A DNA stretch of 32,661 nucleotides from a virus. Where the stretch lies: positions 1 through 32,661 of the IMG/VR virus record IMGVR_UViG_3300009320_000075. The stretch is one strand, 5' to 3'. The notes beneath the pieces were generated by a model that saw only the letters and a program-made list of their open reading frames with translations, searched no databases and was not told the origin of the DNA. A program made the translations under genes and the position numbers. Within the stretch, counting starts at the first letter, position 1; each line of letters begins with the position of its first letter. Of the stretch, positions 3,726 to 30,988 are shown in pieces.

Positions 3726-4760
3726 ATGAAATTTCCTTATTCAATAAAAGAATTAGAGAAACTATATCAAGATGGATATCTGGCAAAACAGAAGCATCCA
3801 AAATATGATATATGGATCTATAATTACTCTCAAAAATGTCAATTTGAGCAGTTATGGAATCCAATTACTTTAATGTGTCGTGGACTTGTACTAGATTCTG
3901 ATTATAATGTATTGGCAAGACCAATTCCAAAATTCTTTAATATCGAAGAACACAAACCAGAAGAAATTCCAAATGAATCATACGAAATTCTAGAGAAAAA
4001 AGATGGATCATATATTTCAGTTTTCTGGGTTAATGGCGAAATGATCGTTTCATCTCGCGGATCATTCACATCAGACCACGCTGTAAAAGCTCGTGAAATC
4101 ATTGAAAAGAAATATAAGAAGATAATTGACTCATATAAACTAGACGAACTAAATCTAGTGTTCGAACTTGTGGCAAAATTCAATAAGATAGTAGTAGACT
4201 ATGGTGATACTGAAGATTTATTCTTAATTACTGCGATTGCAAATGATACTAGAGATGAAGTACCATATGAAGTGCTACAGGATTTTGGGTTCCCAATAGT
4301 GAAAAGGTACAAAAATCTAAAAATTTCAGAACTAAAAGAACTAAATTCTGATAATGAAGAAGGATTTGTTGTTAAATTCAAATCTGGAATGAGAATTAAG
4401 ATAAAATTTGAAGATTATGTAAGATTGCATCGTATTGTAACAAACGTATCAACTAAAACTATCTGGGAACATCTGAAGGACGATGAACCATTAGATGATC
4501 TATTAGATAATGTACCGGATGAATTTTTCAAATGGGTGAAATTCACAATCAAAAAATTCGAAAATCAATACAAAGAAATAGAAGAATACTGTAAAGAAAA
4601 CTTCAAAATTCTTGAAACAAGAAAAGAATGTGCATTGTATTATCAAACAAAGAAATATCCTGCTGTCTTGTTTAAGATGATGGAAGATAAACCATATGAT
4701 CAAATCATCTGGAAGATAATTAAACCAAAATACGAGAAACCATTTAAAATTGAAGAATAA
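3726..4760 (+). CDS. rnlA: T4 RnlA-like RNA ligase
   Basis: This 344-residue protein joins 5'-phosphate and 3'-hydroxyl RNA ends using ATP. Motif I is KKDGS at residues 91-95, with K91 the predicted adenylated lysine. An upstream RGLVLD at 52-57, a following SSRGSF, the EGFVVKF motif IV and the RIKIKFEDYVRLH motif V complete the nucleotidyltransferase core. An all-helical C-terminal region follows, as in T4 RNA ligase 1. In T4 this enzyme with Pnkp repairs tRNA cut by host anticodon nucleases. The PNKP gene is 306 nt downstream, consistent with that role. Confidence 0.9.
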   Translation: MKFPYSIKELEKLYQDGYLAKQKHPKYDIWIYNYSQKCQFEQLWNPITLMCRGLVLDSDYNVLARPIPKFFNIEEHKPEEIPNESYEILEKKDGSYISVFWVNGEMIVSSRGSFTSDHAVKAREIIEKKYKKIIDSYKLDELNLVFELVAKFNKIVVDYGDTEDLFLITAIANDTRDEVPYEVLQDFGFPIVKRYKNLKISELKELNSDNEEGFVVKFKSGMRIKIKFEDYVRLHRIVTNVSTKTIWEHLKDDEPLDDLLDNVPDEFFKWVKFTIKKFENQYKEIEEYCKENFKILETRKECALYYQTKKYPAVLFKMMEDKPYDQIIWKIIKPKYEKPFKIEE

Positions 4761-5054
4761 TGAAATGTAAAAAATGCAATAAAGAAATCAATCTACATAT
4801 ACTCGGAGCACCAGAAGATATATGTTATGGTTGTTTAAGTGAAACTGAAAAAGATGAAATTGCTGAAATTGGTGTAAGAAATTATTCAAGCAATTACAGA
4901 AGAGCTTGATGAATGTCTTTCATCAACAAATGCAGAAGTACTAAATTGGGAAGATAAAATTATTGAACTTGATGAAGAAAATCAGACGATAACTATTAAA
5001 TTTGATTATAATATAGTTGAATCAGATGATTATATTGGCTTGGCTTTTTATTAA
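4760..5054 (+). pseudogene. Frameshifted zinc-ribbon protein
   Basis: The ATG overlaps the ligase stop (TAATG). The first frame gives MKCKKCNKEI... with CxxC at residues 3-6 and CYGC at 22-25, then stops at 4907-4909. A second frame, 4878-5054, continues as an acidic helical protein (EIIQAITEELDECLSS...) with no usable start. Deleting one A in GTAAGAAATT (4874-4883) joins them into one protein of about 97 residues. It is either a real pseudogene, a sequencing indel or a programmed shift. Confidence 0.55.
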
Positions 5055-5065
5055 AATTTAAGATT

Positions 5066-5917
5066 ATGAAAATAATAGTATTAAAAGGAATTCCAGGATC
5101 GGGCAAATCAACCTGGGCAAGAGAATACTGTGCAAAAAATAAGGATTTCATCCGAGTGAATCGTGATGATCTACGTAATATGCGTGGAAACTACTGGATT
5201 CCAAAACAGGAAAAGCTGATCACTCAAATGGTGGATTCATGCATTGATTTGGTACTATCCAATGGATATAATTTGATATTAGATGAGATGAATTTGAATC
5301 AGGACAGAAATAAAGCAAGAGAAGCTAAAATCAAAGAGCAATATCCAGATGCCAAATTTGAGTATAAATTTTTTGAAATTACGTTAGAAGAAGCAATCAA
5401 ACGTGATCTACAAAGACCAAATTCAATTGGTGAAAAAGTGATCACTAACACTTATAATAAATACTTTAAAAAAGAACCAATGAAACTAAGACAAGATGAC
5501 AGTCTCATCAAAGCAATAATCGTTGATGTCGATGGAACAATAGCACTGAAAGGTGATAGAAGTCCATATGATTGGAAAAGAGTGGGCGAGGATACACCAA
5601 ATACACCGGTTGTAAATCTAGTTAAATCTCTAAGACAAACTGGATATAGAATAATATTTGTATCTGGAAGAGATGGAGTGTGCAGACTCGAAACGAAACA
5701 GTGGATTGAAGAAGTATTTCCAAATCTAATATACACTCTTCATATGAGAAAAGAAGGTGATATGAGAAAAGATACAATCATTAAAAAAGAAATATTTGAT
5801 GATTATATAAAGGATAATTTTTATGTTGAGATGACTCTGGATGATAGAAATTGCATGGTCTCTGCTTGGCGTGAAATGGGACTAACTTGCCTGCAATGTG
5901 CTGAGGGGTCATTTTAA
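5066..5917 (+). CDS. pseT: T4 PseT-like polynucleotide 5'-kinase / 3'-phosphatase
   Basis: A 283-residue bifunctional RNA-end healing enzyme. The N-terminal kinase has the P-loop GIPGSGKS (residues 8-15) and NRDDLR (32-37), matching the T4 Pnkp catalytic Asp35 region. The C-terminal HAD phosphatase has VDVDGT with the DxDGT signature at 154-158, followed by FVSGRDG and DDR near the end. It prepares 5'-phosphate/3'-OH ends for the RNA ligase upstream. Both domains are intact and near the 301-residue T4 length. Confidence 0.92.
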   Translation: MKIIVLKGIPGSGKSTWAREYCAKNKDFIRVNRDDLRNMRGNYWIPKQEKLITQMVDSCIDLVLSNGYNLILDEMNLNQDRNKAREAKIKEQYPDAKFEYKFFEITLEEAIKRDLQRPNSIGEKVITNTYNKYFKKEPMKLRQDDSLIKAIIVDVDGTIALKGDRSPYDWKRVGEDTPNTPVVNLVKSLRQTGYRIIFVSGRDGVCRLETKQWIEEVFPNLIYTLHMRKEGDMRKDTIIKKEIFDDYIKDNFYVEMTLDDRNCMVSAWREMGLTCLQCAEGSF

Positions 5918-8699: not shown

Positions 8700-8730
8700 T
8701 TGTATTATTCATAGAATTTTTGTATATTCG
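8700..8730 (+). promoter_or_regulatory. Bacteroidota-type promoter P4
   Basis: TTG 8700-8702, N20, TATATTCG 8723-8730. It sits 21 nt before the ATG at 8752 and would drive the next part of the sugar block. The dyad seen in other copies is degenerate here (CTTG-N7-CATA). Confidence 0.7.
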
Positions 8731-9108: not shown

Positions 9109-9146
9109 TAAGAATGAAACATAGTAACAATCAACGAATAAATAGA

Positions 9147-10064
9147 ATGAAAAAGATACTAATAACTGGCGGTTCTGGCACAATCGGAACATCATTCATT
9201 AAAGAATACTATGATGAATATGAGTTCTATAATGTTAGCAGGAATGGTGGTAATATTACAAAATTACAACAAGATTATCCAAAAGTAACTAGTTTTGTAT
9301 GTGATATACTAAATTTGGAATCATTGATAAATATTTTTGAAAAAGTCAAACCAGATATTGTCATACATACAGCAGCACTAAAACATATTAATATAGCTGA
9401 AGAGAATCCATCTCAAGCATCTGAAATTAATATCGCTGGAAGTCTCAATGTCATAAAAGCAAGCATAAGAGCTGTGGTACCAATAACAGTTGGCATAAGC
9501 ACAGATAAAGCATGTAACCCATCGTCATTATATGGATATACCAAAAGTATAATGGAACGTATGTTCATGGAAAATCACAATGAAAAAACTAAATTTGTCT
9601 GTGTACGGTTTGCAAATATAGCCGGAAGCAGTGGTTCAGTGATTCCAATATGGAAGGAACGAGCAAAAAGAGGCGAACCATTACAATTAACTGATCCATA
9701 TATGAATCGGTTAATGTTTTCAAAAAGAGATGCTGTCCATCTAATTCGGCACGCTATCGATGATGCTGTAAATCATAATAAAGTATCATTTATTTTATGT
9801 CAAAGGATGAATAGTGTAAATATGTTTGACTTGGCTAAAATGATTTCAGATGACATTAAAATAATTGGTAAAAGATCAGGTGAGAGATTAAATGAAACAT
9901 TAATAAGTGATTGTGAATTGCCATATACATCAAGCGTATATGAATATGTATATATATTTCCTGAAAAAACTGGTGTTAGAAATCTACAAGAAGAATTATC
10001 ATCAGCGACGGCAGAAAAATTAAATTCAACTGAACTAAAAAAGCTGATATCGCAATGCGAATAA
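9147..10064 (+). CDS. SDR sugar-nucleotide epimerase/dehydratase, CapD/PseB-like
   Basis: An extended short-chain dehydrogenase acting on nucleotide sugars. It has the Rossmann motif ITGGSGTIG at residues 6-14, VIHTAALKH, and STDKACNPSSLYGYTK with the catalytic YxxxK. It also has RFANIAGSSGSVIPIWKER followed by the LTDPYMNRLMFS stretch typical of UDP-GlcNAc 4,6-dehydratase/CapD-FlaA1 relatives. I choose the ATG at 9147; an in-frame ATG at 9114 would add 11 polar residues. The stop overlaps the next glycosyltransferase gene, implying a joint pathway. Confidence 0.8.
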   Translation: MKKILITGGSGTIGTSFIKEYYDEYEFYNVSRNGGNITKLQQDYPKVTSFVCDILNLESLINIFEKVKPDIVIHTAALKHINIAEENPSQASEINIAGSLNVIKASIRAVVPITVGISTDKACNPSSLYGYTKSIMERMFMENHNEKTKFVCVRFANIAGSSGSVIPIWKERAKRGEPLQLTDPYMNRLMFSKRDAVHLIRHAIDDAVNHNKVSFILCQRMNSVNMFDLAKMISDDIKIIGKRSGERLNETLISDCELPYTSSVYEYVYIFPEKTGVRNLQEELSSATAEKLNSTELKKLISQCE

Positions 10065-11008
10065 CTTGGTTAACTGAAGGAGATTGGACTGGTAAAATAC
10101 CACGTAACCACCGAAATATGCGTAATGATGCTGCGTGGATGTGTATTTTGGATGCAGAGCACCAACCGTTGTTTGGACAGTGGAACGATCAAAGATATGA
10201 TTTGGCAATAATTACATTACCAAAGAATAATTTGGGGCATTTTGTACAAAATAATATTGAAATTATTGATCTTGTTAGAGAAAAACTAGCAACAAAAGTC
10301 GCGGTCATGCAAGAAGGACCGTCGGAATATTGGCAGGATTATAAATTAGAAGAACAAGTATGGTTTCTAAACCAATTATTAGCAACAGATTTCATATTGT
10401 GCCATAATAAATATGATAAGGTATACTATGAAGGATTATTTCCCAATAAAGGAGTACATGTATTAATAACATTGATGATAGATGATCAGATCAATGATTT
10501 ACCAAAGGTTGAGCGTGAAAATGTAATAATTGGCGGCAATATGTGCTCATGGTATGGAGGCGCGCATAGTTTTTTGGTAGCGTCTGAATTAGAAATACCA
10601 ATATTCGCTCCATCGATGGGCAGGCGAATTCCACATGAAGAGCAACTTGGAATAAATCATTTACCATATGTGGATTGGTTGGGCTGGATGCATAAATTAA
10701 ATGAGTTCAAATATGCCATTCATCTTATGCCGACAATAGCAGCGGGCACATTTAGCTTAAACGCCGCGGCACTTTCTCTACCATGTATCTCAAATGAAAA
10801 AATAGATACTCAAAGACTGTGTTTTCCAGAATTAAGCGTTGATGTGAATGATGTTGGAAAAGCAAAGAAATTATTACTTAGATTACGAGATGATAAAGAC
10901 TTTTATAATCATTGTTCAGTTGAAGCAAAAATCAACTATGATAAACACTTCTCAGAAAAAGTTTTTATGAAATATATGAATAAAATATTAAAAGAAGAAT
11001 TGTCATGA
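10055..11008 (+). CDS. GT-B-like glycosyltransferase (group 1 type)
   Basis: 317 residues, overlapping the SDR gene by 10 nt. The C-terminal half has the layout of a GT-B nucleotide-sugar domain: IIGGNMCSWYGGAHSFLVA, a HLMPTIAAGTFSLNAAALSLP loop equivalent to the donor-binding E-x7-E region, and a VDVNDVGKAKKLLLRLRDD tail helix typical of glycosyltransferase family 4. The substrate is unknown; the adjacent dehydratase suggests a modified amino or deoxy sugar. Confidence 0.65.
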   Translation: MRITWLTEGDWTGKIPRNHRNMRNDAAWMCILDAEHQPLFGQWNDQRYDLAIITLPKNNLGHFVQNNIEIIDLVREKLATKVAVMQEGPSEYWQDYKLEEQVWFLNQLLATDFILCHNKYDKVYYEGLFPNKGVHVLITLMIDDQINDLPKVERENVIIGGNMCSWYGGAHSFLVASELEIPIFAPSMGRRIPHEEQLGINHLPYVDWLGWMHKLNEFKYAIHLMPTIAAGTFSLNAAALSLPCISNEKIDTQRLCFPELSVDVNDVGKAKKLLLRLRDDKDFYNHCSVEAKINYDKHFSEKVFMKYMNKILKEELS

Positions 11009-11181
11009 AAATAAAAGCACAAGAAGCGGTTGAAATACTCAAACAATATGCAGAAGAAAGTGGGGTACTATTAAGAAGTACAAGTGATCTAAGTCCATTG
11101 GAACAATGGTTAACGTTAAAACTCATATCATGTAACGAAAGAAACAAGGGAATAAAAACAACTATAGAAGAAAGTAAGTGA
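11005..11181 (+). CDS. Small hypothetical protein, 58 aa
   Basis: The ATG overlaps the preceding stop (ATGA) and the TGA overlaps the following GTG start. The protein is helical and charged, with SPLEQWLTLK in the middle. Unrecognised. Its tight overlaps on both sides make it credible. Confidence 0.65.
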   Translation: MKIKAQEAVEILKQYAEESGVLLRSTSDLSPLEQWLTLKLISCNERNKGIKTTIEESK

Positions 11182-11936
11182 AAAATATAAAATCAAATTT
11201 AATAGCAATATTTGTAGGGTTATTGATCGGAGCTATTGTATCAATAACTATATACTTTAGTATGCGAAATAATTACAATGAATTAGAAAATCTATATTCA
11301 GCCGTTAATGATACATTGGTGATTACTCGAAATGATCTGAACCAAGAAGTATCAAAAACATCTGTACTTGAAGCAAGAAATGAAAAGACAATTCTTGAAT
11401 TACAAACAAAAGATAAAAGTATCATACACCTACAAAATGTAATAAGAAATGAAAAATCAATTAACAAAGAATTAAGAACTGCAATTATACTATCAAATGG
11501 AATCATAGCATCATACCAGGATTCATTACAAAATACAATAACTGGATATGAAAGCATAATAGATAGTCTTGGTAATGTTGTAGAATATCCAATATATAAT
11601 CGGGATATTGATATGTTTAATGATTGGGTAACAGGACATGTAAAACTAGGCTATTCATTATTTGATATAAACATACAAACAAAAAGTGAATATGAAATCA
11701 TTATAGGAAGAGAAAGAAAAAACATATTCAAAAAATATAAATCATATGCTCAAGTAACAAATCTCAATCCATATGATTATACTGAAACGGTGCGAGTATA
11801 TAGTAAAACAGAACCAAAGAAAGATAGATTTAACATTAGTATATTCGTTGGAGGTGGAATTGGATACCACAAATCAGCGTTTATTTTGACTCCAATGCTT
11901 GGTATTGGTGTTGGTTATAGATTATTAAGTTTTTAA
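11178..11936 (+). CDS. Membrane-anchored coiled-coil protein, spanin-like candidate
   Basis: It starts with GTG overlapping the previous stop (GTGA). Residues 7-28 are one transmembrane helix. Residues 30-130 form a long coiled coil. The C-terminus (SIFVGGGIGYHKSAFIL...GIGVGYRLLSF) is glycine-rich and ends in an aromatic residue like outer-membrane beta strands. A single protein spanning inner membrane, periplasm and outer membrane would fit a unimolecular spanin, and similar proteins are common in Bacteroidota phages. The endolysin lies 6.7 kb away. It could instead be a structural or envelope-remodelling protein. Confidence 0.6.
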   Translation: MKNIKSNLIAIFVGLLIGAIVSITIYFSMRNNYNELENLYSAVNDTLVITRNDLNQEVSKTSVLEARNEKTILELQTKDKSIIHLQNVIRNEKSINKELRTAIILSNGIIASYQDSLQNTITGYESIIDSLGNVVEYPIYNRDIDMFNDWVTGHVKLGYSLFDINIQTKSEYEIIIGRERKNIFKKYKSYAQVTNLNPYDYTETVRVYSKTEPKKDRFNISIFVGGGIGYHKSAFILTPMLGIGVGYRLLSF

Positions 11937-11939
11937 GTT

Positions 11940-12188
11940 ATGAAAACATCGTACAGAAATTTTAGACTCTCTAGAAATAAAAATATAGAATTCCAGATTG
12001 AATTTAGTTGGATATGTTATAATTTAGCGGATGAGTGGTTCCGTTTTGGAATAGAAACCAAATCAAAACAGGATCATGGCGGATTATATTTCGATTTTTG
12101 TTTGATGAAAATATTTGCAATTATGATTGCATACTACGATCAACGTCATTGGGATTATGATAATGATTGTTGGAAAAAATACAACTGA
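11940..12188 (+). CDS. Conserved phage hypothetical protein, 82 aa
   Basis: A small aromatic-rich protein with KQDHGGLYFDFCLMKIF and ending YYDQRHWDYDNDCWKKY. The DHxGxxF...RHWDYxNxxW layout occurs in uncharacterised phage proteins. It starts three bases after the upstream stop. Confidence 0.75.
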   Translation: MKTSYRNFRLSRNKNIEFQIEFSWICYNLADEWFRFGIETKSKQDHGGLYFDFCLMKIFAIMIAYYDQRHWDYDNDCWKKYN

Positions 12189-12189
12189 T

Positions 12190-12798
12190 ATGAAAGCATG
12201 GATGGACCAAAAAGAAATTGATTTTGTAATTAATTATCTAAAACAAACCCCAGAAGCCACAATGTTAGAGTGGGGATCAGGTGGATCAACTATAGAGTTT
12301 TCAAATTATGTAAAATACTACCATAGCATTGAGCATAATTTAGATTGGTATGTTGATGTGAGAAAAGAGCTTGTTAATAAAAATATAGAGAATGTAGGAC
12401 ACTATCTATCATGTCATCCAAAAGGAAGAGCAGAAGTATATGCTGAATTTTTTGATAAGTGGGAACAATATTTGATTGAAGTTTCGCAAGAAGAAAATAA
12501 TAATATAATTGGATTAACTGATTATTATGATGTAAAAGACCGATTCATATGGAAAAACTATATTGATTTTATTGATAGATTTAAATCTATTAATTTTGAT
12601 TTTATATTTATAGACGGCCGATCAAGACCAAATTGTGCAAAGAAAGCATTAAAATACATTAATAAGGACTCAGTGGTATTTATCCATGATTATTTTAAAA
12701 GACCACAATATCATGTCGTAGAACAAGATTATGAAATTATTGGTGGAGTAGAAGATACATTACAAACAATAGTTGCATTAAAACCAAAAAGTAAATGA
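12190..12798 (+). CDS. FkbM-like SAM-dependent methyltransferase
   Basis: I start at ATG 12190, directly after the upstream stop; an upstream in-frame ATG at 12127 would overlap that gene heavily. Motif I reads MLEWGSGGST, followed by YHSIEHN (acidic end of strand 2). FDFIFIDGRSRPNCAKKAL and VVFIHDYF mark the later Rossmann strands. Sugar or small-molecule O-methylation is likely given the neighbouring glycosyltransferases. Its stop overlaps the phosphoesterase start. Confidence 0.65.
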   Translation: MKAWMDQKEIDFVINYLKQTPEATMLEWGSGGSTIEFSNYVKYYHSIEHNLDWYVDVRKELVNKNIENVGHYLSCHPKGRAEVYAEFFDKWEQYLIEVSQEENNNIIGLTDYYDVKDRFIWKNYIDFIDRFKSINFDFIFIDGRSRPNCAKKALKYINKDSVVFIHDYFKRPQYHVVEQDYEIIGGVEDTLQTIVALKPKSK

Positions 12799-13487
12799 TT
12801 ATTTCGTTAATTTCTGATTCACACTCCAAGCATAAACAAATCACTGATGATCTCCTCGGAGGAGATTTGATCATTCATGCTGGTGATATATCTTCAATGG
12901 GATATACTCACGAGATTCAGAATTTCTGTGATTGGTATAGTAAGTTAAATTATGATACTAAAATATTTATAGCTGGTAATCATGATTTTGGTTTTCAGGA
13001 TAAACCGATAGAAATGAAATATTTATTGGCATTATATCCAGAAATATATTATCTACAAGATGACTTATTCTTGTTAGGTGAAGATAAAGATGATTATCGA
13101 GATAGACCAAAAGTTTGGGGCACTCCTTGGCAACCGAGATTCTGTAGTTGGGCATTTAATGTTGATCGAGGCGCTGATATAAAACAACATTGGGATAAAA
13201 TTCCAATCAATACAGATATTCTTATAACACATGGACCTCCATTTGGTACACTAGATAAAGTTATTGGTAGAACTGAAAGTTTGGGATGTGAAGAATTAGC
13301 AAAACGAATTCGTGAAATCAAACCAAAAATACATGTATTTGGACATATTCACACTGGATATGGATATAAGTTTGATGGAAATACTCATTATATAAATGCA
13401 TCAATATTAAATGAACAATATAAATATACACAAAAACCATTAACAATTGATTGGAACCCAATCACAAATCAACTAAAATTTATATGA
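12795..13487 (+). CDS. Calcineurin-like metallophosphoesterase 1
   Basis: All five blocks of the binuclear metallophosphoesterase fold are present: DSH at residues 8-10, HAGDIS with D31, GNHD at 61-64, ITHGPP and FGHIHTGYG. The length of 230 residues and the motif spellings resemble the UPF0046/MPPED type. The substrate could be a phosphodiester or nucleotide. It is followed by a second, different phosphoesterase with a 4-nt overlap. Confidence 0.88.
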   Translation: MIISLISDSHSKHKQITDDLLGGDLIIHAGDISSMGYTHEIQNFCDWYSKLNYDTKIFIAGNHDFGFQDKPIEMKYLLALYPEIYYLQDDLFLLGEDKDDYRDRPKVWGTPWQPRFCSWAFNVDRGADIKQHWDKIPINTDILITHGPPFGTLDKVIGRTESLGCEELAKRIREIKPKIHVFGHIHTGYGYKFDGNTHYINASILNEQYKYTQKPLTIDWNPITNQLKFI

Positions 13488-14128
13488 AACTAAAAATAGA
13501 TACACCAGATAAACTATTCTTTACATCTGATACTCATTTTGGACATAAAAATATTATATCACTTAATAATCGACCTTTTGCTGATATGCGAGAACACGAT
13601 GAAGTTCTTATTAGTAATTGGAATGAAGTAATTCCAGAAGATAGTATAGTAATCCATCAAGGCGATTTTTTTATGGGCGTACGATCCGAAAAAATAAAGT
13701 GGGTTCTAGAATCATTAAATTTTGGTGTGATGTATCTAACCAAAGGTAACCATGAAAAAGATATAATGAAAAAAGCGTGGGTAAGAGACTATTTTGAACA
13801 AATTGCTGATAGAATAGAACTTGAAATTGATAAAATCACAGTTGTCGCTGATCACTTCCCGATGCTAAGTTGGAATAAAAGCTGTTATGGCTCTTATCAC
13901 ACGTTTGGTCATGTACATGGAAACTTGATTCATCCAAGCGATAGAGCATATAATGTTGGAGTTGATACAAATGATTATCGACCGATATCATATTATGATT
14001 TAATGGAAAAATTTAGAGAAAAACAGGGAATCACACTAAAAGATATAATCAAATCAGAAATAAAGAAATGTAGAAAAGATCCTGCATACTTTATGAATAA
14101 ATACTGTTATATCCAGCATCCAGAATGA
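13484..14128 (+). CDS. Calcineurin-like metallophosphoesterase 2
   Basis: I start at ATG 13484, which overlaps the previous stop (ATGA). It has DTHFGH at 16-21, HQGDFFMG, KGNHE, ADHFPM and FGHVHG, the complete metal-binding set. This version resembles compact phage-type phosphoesterases (DTHFGH...NWN...GNHE) and is not a recent duplicate of its neighbour, since the sequences differ throughout. The substrate is unknown. Confidence 0.88.
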   Translation: MKLKIDTPDKLFFTSDTHFGHKNIISLNNRPFADMREHDEVLISNWNEVIPEDSIVIHQGDFFMGVRSEKIKWVLESLNFGVMYLTKGNHEKDIMKKAWVRDYFEQIADRIELEIDKITVVADHFPMLSWNKSCYGSYHTFGHVHGNLIHPSDRAYNVGVDTNDYRPISYYDLMEKFREKQGITLKDIIKSEIKKCRKDPAYFMNKYCYIQHPE

Positions 14129-14634
14129 TTGAATTTTGCGAAATAATTAGGAACGTATCTAAATATACTGAAAATCAAATTGATGGTAGATATACTGGCA
14201 ATGCATCAATGTGTGGATATTCTCATGATATGCTTATAACAAGGAGCAATATACCAAAAGATGCATTACAACCAAGTGATTTTGTTGTTTCAACATCAAG
14301 TTTGGCTAGCATTGATACACCAGTTCATGTTGGAATATATAAAGAGTTTCCTGATATTAACTATATAATTCACGGACATGCTTATTTGAGTATGATACTA
14401 TCAGAAATACCACATTTGCAATTAATACAAATAACTAAAAAGAAATATAATCATGGTAGTACTAAAGTGATAGAAGAAATAAAAAAACTATCAAAATATA
14501 CAGTTGATTCTGGCGTGTCCAGTTTCTTTATGATCAATCTTAAAAGACATGGATTTATAATAGGAACAAATAATGTCGGACTTATGAAATTAATGTTTGA
14601 TAGAAAAGTAGTAACATTTAGTGAAATCAAATAG
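14125..14634 (+). CDS. Class II aldolase/adducin-like protein
   Basis: 169 residues. TPVHVGIYKEFPDINYIIHG matches the core of class II (zinc) aldolases, with the HxH pair in IHGHA and a third candidate ligand in LKRHGFIIG. The family cleaves or isomerises phosphorylated sugars such as fuculose 1-phosphate. The usual catalytic Glu before TP-x-H appears as Asp (SIDTP), so activity is uncertain. It overlaps phosphoesterase 2 by 4 nt, suggesting coordinated sugar-phosphate chemistry. Confidence 0.65.
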   Translation: MIEFCEIIRNVSKYTENQIDGRYTGNASMCGYSHDMLITRSNIPKDALQPSDFVVSTSSLASIDTPVHVGIYKEFPDINYIIHGHAYLSMILSEIPHLQLIQITKKKYNHGSTKVIEEIKKLSKYTVDSGVSSFFMINLKRHGFIIGTNNVGLMKLMFDRKVVTFSEIK

Positions 14635-14654
14635 TGTGAGAAAAGAAATAACCA

Positions 14655-14837
14655 ATGAAAGATAAAAATAATCTAGCAGTAAAAATATGGAATAAACCTC
14701 CAAATCTCAAAGGATTAATAGACCAAGATATATTAGACAGATTCAAAAAATCTAATGTATTTTGGGGAGATATCATAAATGCTCAATTAATCAAAACTAA
14801 TAAAGAGCTTGTAGCAGAATTAAAGAAACAGAATTAA
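14655..14837 (+). CDS. Small hypothetical protein, 60 aa
   Basis: A short, mostly helical charged protein (PPNLKGLIDQDILDRFKKSN). It follows the aldolase-like gene after 20 nt. No family is recognised. Confidence 0.6.
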   Translation: MKDKNNLAVKIWNKPPNLKGLIDQDILDRFKKSNVFWGDIINAQLIKTNKELVAELKKQN

Positions 14838-14857
14838 CCAATTAGGAGAGATAACAA

Positions 14858-15055
14858 ATGAGTGAAATAATTGATAAAGATAATTCAGCGGATGAATGGG
14901 AATGTCCATTTTGTAAATATGGGGGTGCATATATTATTGAAGAAACCGTACTAAAAAACGATTGGAAGGAAATACTGTGTGGCTGTCTTGAATGCAATGA
15001 AATGTATATCAGAGAATATAAATACGTTAAAACTATTAAATTGATACGAAAATAA
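14858..15055 (+). CDS. Zinc-ribbon protein, 65 aa
   Basis: CPFC at residues 16-19 and CGCLEC (41-46) form a four-cysteine ribbon in a small acidic protein. Unusually for this window it has a Shine-Dalgarno-like AGGAG before the ATG (about 14843-14847). Function unknown; possibly a nucleic acid or protein-binding adaptor. Confidence 0.7.
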   Translation: MSEIIDKDNSADEWECPFCKYGGAYIIEETVLKNDWKEILCGCLECNEMYIREYKYVKTIKLIRK

Positions 15056-15058
15056 CTA

Positions 15059-15337
15059 ATGAAAGAATCAGAAATATATGGGCAATGGAAATGCTCTACA
15101 TGTGGTTATACAAAATCATTAACAAATCCAATTACAGGATGTCCATTTTGTGATAAGGAAGAGCCAATGAGTTACACAGACCAGTTAAAGAATATGAGTA
15201 ATAAGGATTTAATGAATCAACTAGAATCAGTGGGAGTAGTATGTTCACAAGAAGGTTATGGCGAACCGACTAAGAAAATATGGAGAGAACGGGGAATATT
15301 AATTAGAGCTGAACTACTCTCTCGAATGGAACCATAA
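15059..15337 (+). CDS. Rubredoxin/zinc-ribbon-like protein, 92 aa
   Basis: CSTCGY at residues 12-17 and GCPFCDKEEP at 28-37 form a four-cysteine knuckle pair close to the N-terminus, followed by a helical tail. It starts three bases after the preceding zinc-ribbon gene, so two zinc proteins are encoded side by side. No function is assigned. Confidence 0.7.
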   Translation: MKESEIYGQWKCSTCGYTKSLTNPITGCPFCDKEEPMSYTDQLKNMSNKDLMNQLESVGVVCSQEGYGEPTKKIWRERGILIRAELLSRMEP

Positions 15338-15368
15338 AGAAAGTGTAAATTCATAAGAATAAAATATA

Positions 15369-16574
15369 ATGGAACAGTTACAGAAATCTGATATTAGTTT
15401 GGTGATTCCTTCGAGAGAGAATCTACAATATTTTAAGTGGTGTTATGAATCCATCAGAAAAAACGGAGGATCAGATGTATGGATATGTGCTGCAGATGAT
15501 GCTAGTACCGACGGAACTAAAGAGTATTTTGCTGAATTAAGTAAAATAGATAAGCATTTCAAATATATCGTTAATGATTCTGGTAAAAGGAGGGGACACA
15601 CAATTTTATACGATCTTATAGTTGAACAACTGGTTGAAACGCCTATAATGGGAATTTTTCATAGCGATATGCATTTATGTCCCAATGCATTGGAGGAAGT
15701 ACTAAAACATATAAAACCAAAATTAATCGTATCATTAACAAGAATTGAACCTTTATTACATCCAGCGGGCAAAGAAAAAGTACAACTTGATTGTGGAATA
15801 GAACCAGATAAATTCAATGAACAAAAATTATTAGAATATGTATATGCTGATAACCATGGCGAAAAAACAACCGATGGAATATTCGCTCCGTGGTTCATTC
15901 ATAAACAAGAGTTTTTAGATGTGAATGGTCATGATCCACTTCTAGCTCCACAAAGCAAGGAAGATTCTGATATATTCAATCGTCTAATGTTAAGTGGTTG
16001 TAAATTTGTACAAACATGGCGTGGATTTGTGTATCATTTAACGTGTAGAGGAAGCCGGTATCAACCAAAACTAACAACTGTCGGCAAAGAATCAGATGAG
16101 TGGTTGATACAGAATAATCGTAGTACTCGTAATTTTATCCGAAAATGGGGGTCAATGGTACGGCATTTAGAAACAATGAAACCAATAGTTCCACATAAGT
16201 ATAATATTGCATTCGTCGTCAAAAACTGTACAATGGAAATACTTAGTTTAATCGAACCACACTGCGACCGAGTCTACTTAAACAATGATATGGTTAGAAA
16301 TCAATATGTTTGGGATGAACAAAAGGCAACTAAATACGATATGAAAAAAAGAGTATTAAAGTTGGATGAAAATAAACCATTTGAAGACAATGATATCATC
16401 GTAGAATTTGATTGTGCTAGATTAAATCAAAATAATATACAGATACTACAAATGCTACCAGATATTATCACAGATTCCGGCGAAATTGGCGAAATGGAAT
16501 TTGATATATTCAAGTTCAAAATTAAGTCAATGAAAACATATGAACATACACTTATTAAAAAAGTAGAAAAATGA
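15369..16574 (+). CDS. Family 2 (GT-A) glycosyltransferase
   Basis: 401 residues. The N-terminal domain has ISLVIPSRENLQYFKWCYES, CAADDASTDGTKEYF (nucleotide binding) and GIFHSDMHLCPNAL with the metal-binding DxD-type motif, then EDSDIFNRLMLSGC, a canonical GT2 acceptor-side motif. The C-terminal 120 residues are extra and could bind the acceptor or partner proteins. It probably elongates a glycan made by the surrounding genes. Its stop overlaps a tiny leader-like ORF. Confidence 0.82.
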   Translation: MEQLQKSDISLVIPSRENLQYFKWCYESIRKNGGSDVWICAADDASTDGTKEYFAELSKIDKHFKYIVNDSGKRRGHTILYDLIVEQLVETPIMGIFHSDMHLCPNALEEVLKHIKPKLIVSLTRIEPLLHPAGKEKVQLDCGIEPDKFNEQKLLEYVYADNHGEKTTDGIFAPWFIHKQEFLDVNGHDPLLAPQSKEDSDIFNRLMLSGCKFVQTWRGFVYHLTCRGSRYQPKLTTVGKESDEWLIQNNRSTRNFIRKWGSMVRHLETMKPIVPHKYNIAFVVKNCTMEILSLIEPHCDRVYLNNDMVRNQYVWDEQKATKYDMKKRVLKLDENKPFEDNDIIVEFDCARLNQNNIQILQMLPDIITDSGEIGEMEFDIFKFKIKSMKTYEHTLIKKVEK

Positions 16575-16615
16575 AAAGAATATATAGCGTAACCGATGTT
16601 AAGTGGTTGTGGTGA
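16571..16615 (+). CDS. Possible leader peptide MKRIYSVTDVKWLW
   Basis: The ATG overlaps the glycosyltransferase stop (ATGA) and the 14-residue frame ends with Trp-Leu-Trp-stop. Its last codons form the 5' arm of the hairpin described next. It could be an attenuator leader, or merely the remnant start of a lost gene. Confidence 0.35.
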   Translation: MKRIYSVTDVKWLW

Positions 16616-16651
16616 TGAAAAGCCCGTGCGAACCACCCGCTACTGTTTTTT
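16585..16651 (+). promoter_or_regulatory. Hairpin plus T6 run, candidate attenuator or terminator
   Basis: GTGGTT (16603-16608) pairs with AACCAC (16631-16636). Outside it TAGCG (16585-16589) pairs with CGCTA (16638-16642), and CTG plus TTTTTT (16646-16651) follow. It lies in the only gap of this gene run, 17 nt before the next ATG. Local G+C is higher than its surroundings. Confidence 0.45.
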
Positions 16652-16667
16652 AACTAAAAATAAAATC

Positions 16668-17168
16668 ATGATAAATAAAGACACTGCAAATCACATAAAA
16701 GGAACAACCGGAGAACGATTCATTGCTGAATGGTTAGAAAAGAAGCCTAAAGTTGACCGAGTAGAACTATCAATTAATCCATTTGACAACAAAAAGGATT
16801 GCGTGGTTCACTTCACTGATGTTGAATCAAAAACTTTAGAGATCAAATCACAAACGCCATACATACAAAAAGAATCTATAACATTCCCATTACATCAAAA
16901 AGAGAAAATAGATAACGTGGATGTGGTACTAGTATTATGCACAAGTGATTCAAGGCAAAAAAGAAATAAATACGACGGATGGCTTCTCCAATTAAAAAAA
17001 GATTATAAAATATACGAAGTTAAAGACATGGGAACTGAGGAAGCAAGAATATTAATCAAAATAAACGAGGACAACTTCCATAGAATACACGAGTTTTCAG
17101 AAGAGGAAATGGAAGTTTTTAGAAGTTTACCATCAACATCAAATTATACAAATTTTAAAAATCAATAA
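16668..17168 (+). CDS. PD-(D/E)XK-like protein, 166 aa
   Basis: I start at ATG 16668, behind an A/T leader; an upstream in-frame ATG at 16596 would translate through the hairpin. It begins with a TTGERFIAEWL helix, then NPFDNKKDCVVHF and LEIKSQ about 19 residues later, the Asp...Glu-x-Lys pattern of the PD-(D/E)XK nuclease fold. The usual roles are restriction, recombination or repair, but catalytic competence cannot be judged. Its stop overlaps the next gene start. Confidence 0.5.
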   Translation: MINKDTANHIKGTTGERFIAEWLEKKPKVDRVELSINPFDNKKDCVVHFTDVESKTLEIKSQTPYIQKESITFPLHQKEKIDNVDVVLVLCTSDSRQKRNKYDGWLLQLKKDYKIYEVKDMGTEEARILIKINEDNFHRIHEFSEEEMEVFRSLPSTSNYTNFKNQ

Positions 17169-18634
17169 TGCACGTAACTAAAGAACAAATAGATAATATA
17201 TTAAAGCAAACAAATAGCAAAATAGAAGACTTTGATAATTTCATTGAAACTGGCACATATATGGGGGATACCATACTAAGCATATGTCAGCACTTTAAGA
17301 GAAATTATACAATTGAAATACAAATAGACCTATATCACAAAATTGTAGAACAATGCGTGGATAGAAAAATAAATAATATTAACTGCTATTTTGGAGATAG
17401 TTCTGTCGTACTAAAAGATATACTAACAAAAGAAGTGGATAGTAAATCTATATTTTATTTAGATGCTCACTATTCAGGTGGAAAGACGGGCAGGGGTAAG
17501 AAAGATACACCATTATTAGAAGAACTAAAATTAATCAATAAATATCATAATTTTGATAGTGTTATTATTATAGATGATTTTCAAGATTTTGGTGTTAAAA
17601 ACAAAAATATTAACTGGGAAGATATTACAGTTGATCATGTACTTGACTGCTTTGATAGTGATAAAGTCGTGAAGTCATTTCCAATTGTAGATGAAAAAAA
17701 TAATGGATTTATTGTATGCTTGAGAAAATTAAGCAAAAAGCATTCAGACAAGAGTATCCTGGTGAGTGGAGGATGTGGATTTATTGGGAGCAATATCGTT
17801 GATAAACTAATAAATCTTGGACATAATGTAATAGTGATTGATAATTTGTCAACCGGTAAAATGGAATATCTAAATCCAAGAGCTAAATTTATTCAAGCTG
17901 ATATCCGTTCGTCTCAAATACTTCAAATAATACGCGGATTAGATCAAATTGATGCAATTATACATACAGCAGCTAAAGGCCGAGTTCAACCGTCTCTGAA
18001 AAGCCCAATTGATTATCATAACAATAATGTAACAGGAACTCTAAATTTATTGGAGGCATGTCGGATAAGTAATATAACAAAATTTATATTTAGTTCATCA
18101 TCATCTGTATATGGTAATGAATTGACTATGTCAGAAGATGTATTACCAAAACCAACTTCACCATATGCTTTAACAAAATATTTAGGAGAATTATATTGTA
18201 AAATGCATTCTGATTTATATGGTACCAAAACAATATGTTTGAGATATTTCAATGTATATGGCAATAGAGGATGCGATGATTTGGTTTTTGGCATTTTTAC
18301 AAAACAAAAACTTGAAGGAAAACCATTAACATTAACAAACGATGGATTGCATAGAAGAGATTTTACTTTTGTTGGAGATATAGTTGATGCAAATATTCGA
18401 GCATTGAGAATTGATTTGAATAATAATCACGAAATCATAAATATAGGAAATTCAGATAATCGGTCAATCATAGAAATAGCCAAACTATTTGATCAACCAA
18501 TAGAATTTATTGGTAAAAGAGAAGAACCAAAAGAGACAAGAGCAATAATTGGGAAAGCAAACTTGTTACTAGGATGGAAACCAACTACAAAAATAGAAGA
18601 TTGGTTTGAAGAATATAGAAAAATCTTCATTTAA
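17168..18634 (+). CDS. Methyltransferase fused to GalE-like NAD-dependent epimerase
   Basis: 488 residues with two enzymes in one chain. Residues 1-190 are a SAM methyltransferase-like domain: ETGTYMGDTI, YTIEI, YLDAHYSGGKTGRGKKDTPL, VIIIDDF. From about residue 196 comes an extended SDR: LVSGGCGFIGSNIVDKL, IHTAAKGRVQPS, FSSSSSVYG, SPYALTKYLGELY with the YxxxK pair, and RYFNVYGNRG. The second half matches UDP-glucose 4-epimerase relatives. Continuous frame and no internal start suggest a true fusion that makes and methylates a nucleotide sugar. Confidence 0.85.
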   Translation: MHVTKEQIDNILKQTNSKIEDFDNFIETGTYMGDTILSICQHFKRNYTIEIQIDLYHKIVEQCVDRKINNINCYFGDSSVVLKDILTKEVDSKSIFYLDAHYSGGKTGRGKKDTPLLEELKLINKYHNFDSVIIIDDFQDFGVKNKNINWEDITVDHVLDCFDSDKVVKSFPIVDEKNNGFIVCLRKLSKKHSDKSILVSGGCGFIGSNIVDKLINLGHNVIVIDNLSTGKMEYLNPRAKFIQADIRSSQILQIIRGLDQIDAIIHTAAKGRVQPSLKSPIDYHNNNVTGTLNLLEACRISNITKFIFSSSSSVYGNELTMSEDVLPKPTSPYALTKYLGELYCKMHSDLYGTKTICLRYFNVYGNRGCDDLVFGIFTKQKLEGKPLTLTNDGLHRRDFTFVGDIVDANIRALRIDLNNNHEIINIGNSDNRSIIEIAKLFDQPIEFIGKREEPKETRAIIGKANLLLGWKPTTKIEDWFEEYRKIFI

Positions 18635-23118: not shown

Positions 23119-23149
23119 TTGTAATATCAAAAAAAAAGTTGTATATTCG
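23119..23149 (+). promoter_or_regulatory. Bacteroidota-type promoter P5 abutting a start codon
   Basis: TTG 23119-23121, N20, TATATTCG 23142-23149. The only ATG of the next gene is at 23151, one base after the -7 element, so transcription would begin at or just past the start codon. Confidence 0.65.
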
Positions 23150-24891: not shown

Positions 24892-24922
24892 TTGTTTCGT
24901 AATAGAATTAGTGTTATATTCG
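24892..24922 (+). promoter_or_regulatory. Bacteroidota-type promoter P6
   Basis: TTG 24892-24894, N20, TATATTCG 24915-24922. The spacer begins TTTCGTAATAGAA, a decayed version of the palindrome in P2, so P2 and P6 form a subclass. It drives the 66-residue gene and probably the AAA+ gene. Confidence 0.75.
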
Positions 24923-24944: not shown

Positions 24945-25145
24945 ATGACAGCAACATTCAATTACCAAGGAAAACAAATCACACTCCGATTCGACCCAGT
25001 TTCATCACATGTTTTAGTATCAACAGAAGAATCAGTAATTAAGTATATTGATGTCGCTGATAAAGCGATGTTTGATATAAATGATTTCAAAGTTATTGTC
25101 GAACAGATGATCAAAGATCTTGAAATTGAACCAGTATATTCATAA
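24945..25145 (+). CDS. Small hypothetical protein, 66 aa
   Basis: The first gene behind P6. The beta-rich start (TATFNYQGKQITLRFDPVSS) is followed by a helical acidic tail. It is separated from the AAA+ gene by 63 nt of A/T-rich leader. Unrecognised. Confidence 0.7.
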   Translation: MTATFNYQGKQITLRFDPVSSHVLVSTEESVIKYIDVADKAMFDINDFKVIVEQMIKDLEIEPVYS

Positions 25146-25208: not shown

Positions 25209-26516
25209 ATGATAACAATTAAAGTAACATGGAACGCCGATCAAACCCGTAGAATTGCTACTGGAGACGACGGTAAAGATTATTCAAAAATCATCGGATA
25301 TGCGATCAAAAAGAAAGCATGTGCCGAAGGTAGAGAACTCACCTATTATCCCTCTGAAAAGGAAGTATGGTACGAAGGTAAACTCGTACCCAGAGGTTTA
25401 GATGGAGTGCCAGCTAAAAAGAAATCAAAATTAAAACCACAGCCAAAAGCAATTGAACTTGATGAGCGTCTTCCAGAAGATAAACTGAAAGAACTCAAGT
25501 ATTTGCACAATGAGTCATACGCTGATAAGCCCGAATTGCTGATCATGAGTGAACTCAAGTGGAAGTATTTAGTACGTTCATGTATGCGTGGTAAGAACAT
25601 TATTATGACTGGTCCTTCTGGTTGTGGTAAGACAATGGCTGCTCGGTCAGCTTCTCAAGTGATGAAAAAAATGAAGGACTCAGAATTCTTCTATTTCAAC
25701 TTAGGAGCATCACAAGACCCCAGAACATTTTTGATTGGTAATGTCCAGTTTAATTCTGAAACCGGTACTTACTTTTCAGAGTCCTTGTTTGTTAAAGCGA
25801 TTCAAACACCAAACGCTGTTATCCTTCTTGATGAGCTAACAAGAGCTCACCCCGAAGCAGCAAACATTCTTATGACTGTTCTTGACGCCGGTCAGAGGTA
25901 TTTGAGACTTGACGAAATTGGTGATTCAAGTAAATCGACAATCCGTGTTGCAGATGGTGTATCATTTATCGCTACTGCAAACATCGGGGCTGAATATACT
26001 GGTACTAAAATTATGGACCGGGCTATCAAAGACCGGTTTACAATCATTGAAATGGACACATTGACCTCTATAGAGGAAATTGGGTTGTTAACTAAAATGT
26101 TCCCATATCTTCATGAGAAAAAAATCACTGCAATCGCTGAAGTTGCTGAAGCCACCCGTATTGAGGTAAAGAAAGAAGACAGCAAAATCAGTACAATCGT
26201 TTCCACACGTGCCACTGTTGAAATGGCAGAACTTATGACTGACGGGTTTACATTTACAGAAGCTTCGTCAATTGTTGTGGCTCCACTATTTGACGCCGAC
26301 GGCGGTACAGAAAGTGAACGGGCATACATCATGTCAATCATCCAAAAATATAATGAAATTGATGATATCAAAGACATCTTCAATATCGATGATGAACCCA
26401 CTCCTGTAGCTGATATGTCTACTGGCAATGCTGAATGGAGTAGTGGTATTTTCGAAGAAGCTGAAAAAGAAGCTAAAACTGACAGTGGTCTGTTTACTAC
26501 AGATGATATCAAGTAA
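25209..26516 (+). CDS. MoxR/CobS-like AAA+ ATPase
   Basis: 435 residues. An approximately 100-residue N-terminal region with a basic linker precedes the ATPase core: Walker A GPSGCGKT (135-142), Walker B VILLDEL (204-210) with RAHPEAAN after it, and sensor FIATAN near 258. A downstream RAIKDRF carries the arginine finger. MoxR/CobS ATPases act as rings with VWA partners, and such a partner follows in the next transcript. Codon and base composition are visibly richer in G+C than in the neighbouring small genes. Confidence 0.88.
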   Translation: MITIKVTWNADQTRRIATGDDGKDYSKIIGYAIKKKACAEGRELTYYPSEKEVWYEGKLVPRGLDGVPAKKKSKLKPQPKAIELDERLPEDKLKELKYLHNESYADKPELLIMSELKWKYLVRSCMRGKNIIMTGPSGCGKTMAARSASQVMKKMKDSEFFYFNLGASQDPRTFLIGNVQFNSETGTYFSESLFVKAIQTPNAVILLDELTRAHPEAANILMTVLDAGQRYLRLDEIGDSSKSTIRVADGVSFIATANIGAEYTGTKIMDRAIKDRFTIIEMDTLTSIEEIGLLTKMFPYLHEKKITAIAEVAEATRIEVKKEDSKISTIVSTRATVEMAELMTDGFTFTEASSIVVAPLFDADGGTESERAYIMSIIQKYNEIDDIKDIFNIDDEPTPVADMSTGNAEWSSGIFEEAEKEAKTDSGLFTTDDIK

Positions 26517-26549
26517 AATATATGTTGTTGATTTCTGTGTTTGCGTTAT

Positions 26550-26574
26550 GGGTGGAGCCGTCCTGGTTCCACCC
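26550..26574 (+). terminator. Strong hairpin terminator
   Basis: GGGTGGAGCC (26550-26559) pairs over ten positions with GGTTCCACCC (26565-26574) around a five-base loop and is followed by ATTAATTAATTG. It lies between the AAA+ stop and promoter P7, so the two genes of the pair are on separate transcripts. The U-tract is poor. Confidence 0.75.
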
Positions 26575-26606
26575 ATTAATTAATTGCAAAATAAATCAGA
26601 AAAAGC

Positions 26607-26637
26607 TTGTATAGTTCAAGAAAAAGTATTATATTCG
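26607..26637 (+). promoter_or_regulatory. Bacteroidota-type promoter P7
   Basis: TTG 26607-26609, N20, TATATTCG 26630-26637, with the dyad CTTG-TATAGTT-CAAG identical to that in P1. The ATG of the VWA gene is 19 nt downstream. Confidence 0.8.
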
Positions 26638-26656
26638 TATTGAAAGAAAGATTAAT

Positions 26657-28693
26657 ATGAAACGCGAACAAGATTATTTCACAAATTACTGGCTTGACAG
26701 CATCGACCGTGACTTAGTCATGACTGAAGGTTGTGGATCATCCACCAGCAATTTGATTTATAAAAATAAGCTGAAAAGAGGAGTTGATAATTTTGTGAGA
26801 GCCCTCTCCAAAAAATCAATTCCAATTCAGTTCATGGATAATTGGGAAACAGCGGCCACAGACTTCAAAACCATATTTATTCCAGGTAACATATCAGACA
26901 AGAATTTTGATATTGTAATTGGGCTAGCATTACACGAAGCAGCTCATAATTTATACTCAAAGCCATTTATGACAAAGGATGAATTTGTTAATTATCTCAA
27001 AAATCACAAATTAGATATATATAAACTACTAAAGAAAAAGTATATAATATTTTATAAGAATGGATTATACAATGATAAATATGATTTTGATTATTATACA
27101 TTAGGTACATATTATACTAAGGTATTTCATCCACTGGTTAATATTATTGAAGACCGTAGGATTGATAATCTAGCATTTCATACTGCTCCAGGGTATCGTG
27201 GTTATTATCAAGCATTATATAATAAATATTTCATTAATCGTGGAATCAACAATGCAATCAGAGACCAAAAATTCATAAATGAATCTTGGGACAGTTACAT
27301 ATTTCATCTGACTAATTTTGTTAATCCAAATCGTCAACTTAAATCACTCAAGTATCTGCCGTGGTTATGGAATAAAGTTGATTTGAAAAATATGGATCGT
27401 CTAAAATCAACTGACGATGTTATTAGTCTGGTATTTGAAATCATTAAATTTCTTGAAACAAACACTATTCCAGTTGAAAAGCAAGATGATCAAAAACCTG
27501 AGCAACAGCAACCAAGCGATCAGCAACAAGGTAATGGTGAAGATCAAGAGCAGCAACCAAGCGATCAGCAACAAGGTAATGGTGAAGATCAAGAGGATGG
27601 CAGTGACCAAAATAATAATGATAGCCAACCCGATGATCAAACCATTGAAGATAACAAAAATTTCAATTCAAACGAATCAAACAAAGAATATAACAACGCA
27701 AAGAAACTTATAGTACGTGAATATGAAAAAGTATCTGGTATATCTAAATTAAGCAAAGCAGATAGAAAAAGAATGAAAGTTATTGAAAATACAAATACTA
27801 CTGAATTAGAAGTAATATTGTCTAATGATTATAGTAGTGAACCAACCAAAATAAAAGTGTTTGAATATTTCGTTCGTCAAAAAAATTCTATTGTGCCTGG
27901 CATATCATTATCTTGTCCTTCTGAACGACGTGGACAAGCGTATCAGCGCGGTTTGAATATTGGAAAACGGCTAGCAAAAAAACTGATACTTCGTAATGAA
28001 GATCGCAGTGTCATTTATTCACGTCTAAAACGTGGACGCATTGACAGCCGGTTGATTGCTGAAATTGGGTATGGTAATGAAAAAATCATGAATCGTACTA
28101 TTACTACTACTTACAACCCATCGTTTATTCACATATCAATTGATAACTCTGGTTCAATGGGTGGTAGTAGAATTCATGAATCGATCGTAACAGCAACTGC
28201 AATTGCTGTTGCATGTAGTATCGTTGGTTCAGTTGATGTCCAAATTTCAATCAGAACAACCAATCACCAATCAAACAGAGAAGGTGAAGTATTTATTAGT
28301 TATATATATGATAGTAGAATACATGATCTAAATCACTTGAAGTACTATATGTCAAGAATTGAATGTCCTGGTACTACTCCTGAAGGACTGGTGTTTGGTT
28401 CGATTCTGAATCAACTAAACAAAATACCAAATAATGTTGATAAGTACTTCATTAACATTAGTGATGGTACACCGCAAATCAACCGAGCGACAGATAGGAC
28501 ATCTCTCATAAGGCATACTAAAGAAATGGTCGGGAAAATCAGGAAAACAAATACTAAAATCTTGTCATATATGATCCAAAACCAATCAGAAAGGTTCAAA
28601 GAAATGTATGGCAAGTCAGCTGAATATATTGATGAATCAAATATATTTGAAATCGCAAAAACAATCAATAAGCATTTACTTCAATCAAAATAA
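26657..28693 (+). CDS. CobT-like protein with HEAAH and VWA/MIDAS domains
   Basis: 678 residues. The N-terminal domain has ALHEAAHNLYS with HEAAH at 93-97, then IIEDRRIDNLAFH near 172-184, a metallopeptidase-like pair also seen as degenerate forms in CobT relatives. Residues 275-335 are a Gln/Asp/Glu-rich linker with a 15-residue repeat. The C-terminal VWA domain has the MIDAS HISIDNSGSMGGS (D near 496) and a CPGTTPEG threonine. CobT/CoxE-type VWA proteins couple metal-bound targets to MoxR ATPases, so it is the likely partner of the upstream AAA+ protein. Confidence 0.85.
   Translation: MKREQDYFTNYWLDSIDRDLVMTEGCGSSTSNLIYKNKLKRGVDNFVRALSKKSIPIQFMDNWETAATDFKTIFIPGNISDKNFDIVIGLALHEAAHNLYSKPFMTKDEFVNYLKNHKLDIYKLLKKKYIIFYKNGLYNDKYDFDYYTLGTYYTKVFHPLVNIIEDRRIDNLAFHTAPGYRGYYQALYNKYFINRGINNAIRDQKFINESWDSYIFHLTNFVNPNRQLKSLKYLPWLWNKVDLKNMDRLKSTDDVISLVFEIIKFLETNTIPVEKQDDQKPEQQQPSDQQQGNGEDQEQQPSDQQQGNGEDQEDGSDQNNNDSQPDDQTIEDNKNFNSNESNKEYNNAKKLIVREYEKVSGISKLSKADRKRMKVIENTNTTELEVILSNDYSSEPTKIKVFEYFVRQKNSIVPGISLSCPSERRGQAYQRGLNIGKRLAKKLILRNEDRSVIYSRLKRGRIDSRLIAEIGYGNEKIMNRTITTTYNPSFIHISIDNSGSMGGSRIHESIVTATAIAVACSIVGSVDVQISIRTTNHQSNREGEVFISYIYDSRIHDLNHLKYYMSRIECPGTTPEGLVFGSILNQLNKIPNNVDKYFINISDGTPQINRATDRTSLIRHTKEMVGKIRKTNTKILSYMIQNQSERFKEMYGKSAEYIDESNIFEIAKTINKHLLQSK
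27506..27595 (+). repeat. Perfect 45-bp tandem duplication in the acidic linker
   Basis: The units 27506-27550 and 27551-27595 are identical and encode QQPSDQQQGNGEDQE twice. The frame is kept. The linker length may vary between related phages by copy-number change. Confidence 0.9.
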
Positions 28694-30159: not shown

Positions 30160-30190
30160 TTGTATCTTTCAAGAATTAGTATTATATTCG
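30160..30190 (+). promoter_or_regulatory. Bacteroidota-type promoter P8
   Basis: TTG 30160-30162, N20, TATATTCG 30183-30190, with dyad CTTG-TATCTTT-CAAG. It lies inside a 59-bp sequence (30141-30199) repeated exactly at P9. Confidence 0.8.
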
Positions 30191-30957: not shown

Positions 30958-30988
30958 TTGTATCTTTCAAGAATTAGTATTATATTCG
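30958..30988 (+). promoter_or_regulatory. Bacteroidota-type promoter P9
   Basis: TTG 30958-30960, N20, TATATTCG 30981-30988. Bases 30939-30997 are identical to 30141-30199 (P8). ATG 31007 follows 19 nt after the -7 element. Confidence 0.8.

Follow-up and report, generated by a model that had tools for sequence, protein, structure and literature searches.

Why does a virus carry two genes that resemble subunits of the enzyme that inserts cobalt during vitamin B12 synthesis? The question is raised by a virus contig from IMG/VR (IMGVR_UViG_3300009320_000075), whose 32,661 bases we refer to as the window and whose positions are used throughout. It encodes a MoxR/CobS-like AAA+ ATPase and a CobT-like protein, in which an N-terminal putative metallopeptidase domain is followed by an acidic linker and a C-terminal VWA domain (Table 1). 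Gene pairs of this kind are common in tailed viruses, where they are usually labelled as the cobalt-insertion enzyme of vitamin B12 synthesis; surveys of marine viruses treat cobS and cobT as auxiliary metabolic genes for vitamin B12, and both are part of the core genome of cyanophages. On balance, we lean towards reading the pair as a two-component protein remodeller similar to NorQD, to which a gluzincin-type peptidase has been fused. A motor-driven protease or chaperone is probably the better description of the pair than a B12 cobalt-insertion enzyme. While this kind of gene pair has been published before (Iyer et al. 2021; Liu et al. 2021), the strength and breadth of its HExxH...E signature are new.

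The HExxH...E signature is conserved among viral relatives

All 114 full-length viral relatives of the CobT-like protein contain the motif HE[GAS]SH, and 111 of them have a motif like EDRRID downstream. Only three proteins of at least 500 residues were without HExxH, and all three begin at the end of a contig. In an alignment of 26 rows, which are around 30% identical to the window protein, H93, E94, H97, N162, E165, D166, I169 and D170 are invariant. Judging from these alignments, the HExxH motif is not a chance occurrence and is under strong constraint together with the downstream glutamate. The first-pass annotation of the window had suggested that HExxH might be a real zinc site, and the motif is indeed retained across the family with its conserved glutamate.

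The signature extends to annotated phages. In cyanophages syn9, P-SSM4 and S-PM2, the 'peptidase'-family proteins carry HEVGH, NV[LI]EDARIE some 20-25 residues later, and a DWSGS of the type found in the metal ion-dependent adhesion site (MIDAS) of VWA domains, so that HExxH...E was present in all three of the cyanophage proteins read, as in the window. Here too, the AAA+ and VWA genes are linked, as they are in the viral CobST of tailed viruses (PMC8651126): cyanophages pair cobS (phrog_249) with the 'peptidase' (phrog_459), whose gene lies 0.8 kb ahead of cobS in syn9. In Bacteroides phage BS162P1, the gene adjoining that of an ATPase relative encodes a protein with HEGCH and NILEDERIE, and the homology of this protein to that of the window covers both halves (hhalign probability 99). 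With the cyanophage peptidases, hhalign aligned only the EDxRI region and the subsequent helices (probability 74); because this alignment is partial, full-length homology to them rests on the PHROG matches and the common motifs.

Table 1. Coordinates of the gene pair, its motifs and domains, and the signals around it.
Feature	Position	Strand	Remarks
Promoter-like TTG-N20-TATATTCG	24892..24922	+	Upstream of small open reading frame 24945-25145 and the ATPase gene
MoxR/CobS-like AAA+ ATPase, 435 amino acids	25209..26516	+	AAA_5, phrog_249, viral relatives
Walker A GPSGCGKT, residues 135-142	25611..25634	+	G135, G138, G140, K141 and T142 invariant (n = 19)
Walker B VILLDE, residues 204-209	25818..25835	+	D208 and E209 invariant (n = 19)
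12-bp hairpin between the genes	26548..26576	+	Possible terminator or mRNA stabiliser
Promoter-like TTG-N20-TATATTCG	26607..26637	+	Ends 20 bases before the start codon of the cobT-like gene
CobT-like protein, 678 amino acids	26657..28693	+	N-terminal putative metallopeptidase, acidic linker, C-terminal VWA
HEAAH, residues 93-97	26933..26947	+	Putative zinc site and catalytic Glu, from alignment of relatives
NIIEDRRID, residues 162-170	27140..27166	+	Proposed third zinc ligand E165; N162, E165, D166, I169 and D170 invariant
Low-complexity Q/N/D-rich linker	27473..27694	+	pLDDT <50 in the full-length model
VWA domain	28118..28693	+	MIDAS DNSGS 496-500 (D496/S498/S500) at 28142-28156, T574 at 28376, D603 at 28463

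Domain architecture and predicted structures

Both open reading frames have exactly the ends given by the first-pass annotation. Judged by its sequence, the first gene's product is a typical MoxR/CobS-group AAA+ ATPase. It matches Pfam AAA_5 over the cut-off (E-value of 8.1e-18) and phrog_249, labelled 'porphyrin biosynthesis' and representing phage CobS (E-value of 3.6e-28); further profile matches include midasin, the solved CobS structure (9ujv_A, E-value of 3.7e-10), NorQ and CbbQ. The AAA+ core is intact, as the Walker A and B motifs are accompanied by sensor and arginine residues (N258, R276 and R334) that are invariant in 19 viral sequences. Its relatives, found at 58 viral loci, are 45-57% identical.

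The CobT-like protein is barely recognised by sequence families. It scored 15.6 bits against Pfam CobT_C, below the curated cut-off of 21, the match to CobT itself was weak (E-value of 6.9), and NCBIfam gave no match. Its PHROG matches were to phrog_1576 (2.6e-10), phrog_5298, a 'cobalamin biosynthesis protein' (2.8e-9), and phrog_459, the peptidase (0.005). The MIDAS of the VWA domain is complete, with D496, S498, S500, T574 and D603 invariant in the 26-row alignment. The CobS/CobT-like resemblance proposed in the first-pass annotation is thereby supported for the pair. The linker also contains an exact 45-base tandem duplication (27506-27595), which is recent, judging by its identity.

The full-length model of the CobT-like protein was of moderate quality (predicted local distance difference test, pLDDT, of 64), and the best fold match of its VWA half in the PDB was the VWA domain of NorD in complex with NorQ (9qh6_G, E-value of 1.4e-7). 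The N-terminal domain, modelled from 60 sequences, was predicted with confidence (pLDDT of 90.4, predicted template modelling score of 0.87). HEAAH lies on helix 57-73 and E165 on helix 118-149 (fragment numbering), both well predicted, so in this model E165 may provide the third metal ligand from the following helix. Among the 22 weak PDB matches of this domain at E-values of 10 or below, 10 were zinc metallopeptidases (ranks 1-6, 8-10 and 20), comprising the minigluzincins selecase and abylysin, thermolysin, vibriolysins, PprI, neutral protease and myroilysin. Against a library of viral structures, the model matched phage 'CobT', 'cobalamin biosynthesis' and VWA proteins, including one of haloarchaeal virus HHTV-2, followed by weak matches to metallopeptidases. 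Phage 'CobT' and the HHTV-2 protein thus appear to have the predicted N-domain fold in common with the window protein. When the sequence of the N-domain was searched against the PDB, all matches were chance-like, among them mitofusin (E-value of 0.003), in which HExxH is not kept.

Several observations weigh against a peptidase. No Pfam peptidase family matched the CobT-like protein, and a Foldseek search of the PDB with the N-domain model gave nothing below an E-value of 0.001 (best 0.51). As Foldseek also scores residue identity, the HExxH motif itself boosts the peptidase matches. No candidate substrate was found among the genes neighbouring the pair, and Pseudomonas phage Nican01 has a CobT-type protein without HExxH. 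Finally, HExxH...E may alternatively be a structural or a metal-delivery site. Given the missing motif in Nican01, proteins of its type may form a separate CobST branch that has no peptidase site; such CobT-type proteins are frequent on plasmids of about 110 kb in Klebsiella, Escherichia, Salmonella and Acinetobacter. A pair on a Burkholderia plasmid, whose identity is uncertain, likewise has a VWA protein that lacks HExxH.

A NorQD-like working model

MoxR-type AAA+ proteins paired with a partner consisting of an N-domain, a linker and a VWA domain are known from NorQ/NorD, CbbQ/CbbO and RavA/ViaA, and the window pair has the same organisation. The likeness to NorQ/NorD is seen in the VWA fold match and in the AAA+ profile matches to NorQ and CbbQ. 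NorD differs in that an HExxH peptidase domain is unmentioned in its description (PMC13036017), and sequence identity is very low. NorD and NorQ insert iron into their target (PMC13036017), and the window pair could in the same way be a cofactor-insertion chaperone, whose N-domain binds a metal in order to deliver it to a target metalloenzyme, or to recognise that enzyme, and cuts no peptide bond. The shared domain order and the structural proximity of the VWA half to NorD are consistent with such a role. The catalytic glutamate E94, however, is invariant alongside the histidines and would be needless in a pure binding site, and the N-domain of NorD was not among the matches of our N-domain model. 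We therefore regard a purely metal-delivering chaperone as rather unlikely.

Under the remodeller-peptidase reading that we favour, the mechanics would follow those of NorQD, where the ring holds the VWA domain by a finger and ATP drives a twisting motion (PMC13036017). The viral AAA+ protein would assemble into a MoxR-type ring and, to go by the fold similarity, grip the finger of its partner's VWA domain as NorQ does with NorD, the two proteins forming a complex. ATP would be spent on pulling or twisting the VWA half, and the flexible acidic linker would pass this motion on, transmitting force to the N-terminal domain or positioning it. That domain would bind zinc through HExxH and E165 as gluzincin-type peptidases do. 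Activated or positioned by the motion of the ring, the peptidase would then cut or process a target captured through the MIDAS; we infer both the proteolysis and the nature of that target.

If this model applies widely, many viral 'CobT' proteins, including the cyanophage core gene product, would be ATP-driven metallopeptidases rather than chelatase subunits, with the AAA+ ring gating a VWA-tethered peptidase, and the B12 auxiliary-metabolic reading would be wrong. We put forward this generalisation tentatively, as a real possibility on which we would not yet rely. If true, an AAA+ ring with a VWA-tethered peptidase would represent an alternative to Lon, FtsH or Clp that works without a compartment, and B12 metabolic inferences drawn from these genes in marine-virus surveys would need revision. 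The signature makes the function of this widespread viral pair testable through one point mutation, of the glutamate in HExxH.

A possible role in cobalamin synthesis

The established reading of such pairs is that they replace or boost the host's cobaltochelatase subunits. Liu et al. (2021) proposed that viral CobST hijacks the host's CobN, and considered cyanophage cobT to be 'mistakenly annotated as a peptidase' (PMC8651126). Using host CobN, the pair would raise the supply of cobalamin, for example for ribonucleotide reductase. The labels of phrog_249 and phrog_5298 point in this direction and, as in the aerobic cobaltochelatase CobS/CobT/CobN, the AAA+ protein matches the solved CobS and the MIDAS region is weakly CobT-like. 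In difference to that enzyme, CobN was found in none of the 36 virus records with the pair, many of which are fragments, whereas a control search detected it in five genomes. Hijacking of a host CobN is still conceivable.

We looked for ribonucleotide reductases in 20 records, namely the window and 19 relatives. An adenosylcobalamin-dependent reductase of the RTPR type was clear in nine of them, in four of these over the curated cut-off; the window itself has no ribonucleotide reductase. The remark in the first-pass annotation that a phage has no obvious need for cobalt is thus not supported as it stands, although CobN was missing. Two relatives that encode the adenosylcobalamin-dependent enzyme are L181, where it exceeds the family cut-off, and L182. 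Against a cobalamin role, the pair also occurs with other reductases: class I-type models matched in four marine contigs, with a family scan confirming two of these contigs, and the enzymes of cyanophages syn9 and S-PM2 are long and not of the RTPR type. Because it is found with these class I-type and non-RTPR enzymes, the pair does not track the B12-dependent reductase. The sub-threshold CobT_C score speaks against the chelatase reading as well, and cobalt chelation as it is known leaves the conserved HExxH...E unexplained. A B12 role of the pair may still exist, and we consider that of a viral CobST unlikely for the window pair. The peptidase label of the cyanophage proteins may be right, as the evidence favours a peptidase assignment, contrary to Liu et al. 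(2021).

Gene linkage and genomic neighbourhoods

An alignment-based search of viral contigs identified 390 relatives of the CobT-like protein, 80 of which were fetched. Searching these contigs with one sequence alone found no relatives, as the peptides used were not conserved. Among what was fetched, 92 loci had both genes within 6 kb, always on the same strand, although the ATPase-based and partner-based searches partly overlap and these counts refer to loci, not to independent genomes. The VWA gene comes first at 76 of the 92 loci and the ATPase gene, as in the window, at 16. That the linkage persists despite changes in order argues for a joint function. Compared with viral CobST and the cyanophage pair, the window is thus set apart by its order, with the cobS-like gene first, as well as by a promoter-like copy for each gene and a probable Bacteroidota host (see below).

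Among 84,980 cellular genomes, only two contigs matched, both of them short and located in metagenome bins. These contigs (L178 and L179, from bins assigned to Nitrosopelagicus and Wolfebacteria) encode proteins related to the VWA protein, and an ATPase relative is present in each of the two bins as well. They are probably mis-binned virus.

For group 2.2 jumbo phages, Iyer et al. (2021; PMC7824862) suggested a role in building the virion for a comparable pair, in which MoxR is joined by a vWA protein whose N-terminal domain is a metallopeptidase. Judged by its description, this pair (ASV44728/44729) shares both its domain architecture and its pairing with that of the window; a search for the window family in five jumbo phages (Atu_ph07, SCTP-2, GAP32, CBB and ME3) found no match. 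By analogy with ATV p618/p892, the window pair would then be a virion-assembly chaperone with a processing protease, which is a special case of the NorQD-like remodeller with a named target. The surroundings of the pair do not favour such a target. It lies between gp46 and gp45 in syn9, between ligase and Pol III in Nican01, and near the DNA polymerase in BS162P1, hence outside the structural module in all three, which is weak evidence as position alone is not decisive, and the flanks of the marine loci yielded no virion genes. Since the pair sits near replication genes in these three annotated genomes, the target is no less likely to be a host or replication protein than a virion protein, and we think a dedicated role in virion assembly quite improbable.

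Transcription signals and host

The first-pass annotation had placed a strong terminator and a separate promoter between the two genes. The promoter is well supported, since a promoter-like copy stands upstream of each gene, and TTG-N20-TATATTCG occurs in eight exact copies in the window, where shuffled sequences lead to an expectation of 0.02. All eight are on the plus strand (105-135, 1212-1242, 8700-8730, 23119-23149, 24892-24922, 26607-26637, 30160-30190 and 30958-30988), and six sit within a longer repeat of 59 bases. The set probably marks transcription units. As for the terminator, the hairpin exists, and no other local hairpin in the window is as stable (z-score of -4.7 with its flanks), but its tail is a mixture of T and A with no T run, and it was absent from the output of a terminator scan, so that a strong terminator at this site is plausible at most. 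With a promoter-like copy and a hairpin between them, the two genes can be expressed separately.

The Bacteroidota promoter consensus consists of TTTG and TAnnTTTG at -33/-7 (PMC6847099). The window repeat fits this layout except for one base, a C instead of a T in the -7 element. From this layout we infer that the host is likely a member of the Bacteroidota.

Other features of the window

Elsewhere, the window encodes an RNA repair pair (3726-5917), in which a T4-type RNA ligase (PF09511) is followed by a polynucleotide kinase (phrog_505). There is also a tRNA-Ile with anticodon tat (2339-2433), and a 63-base tandem repeat occurs five times within an open reading frame (1642-2019). Genes for nucleotide-sugar dehydratases/epimerases and a glycosyltransferase (9114-18634) form a possible surface-sugar or glycosylation cluster.

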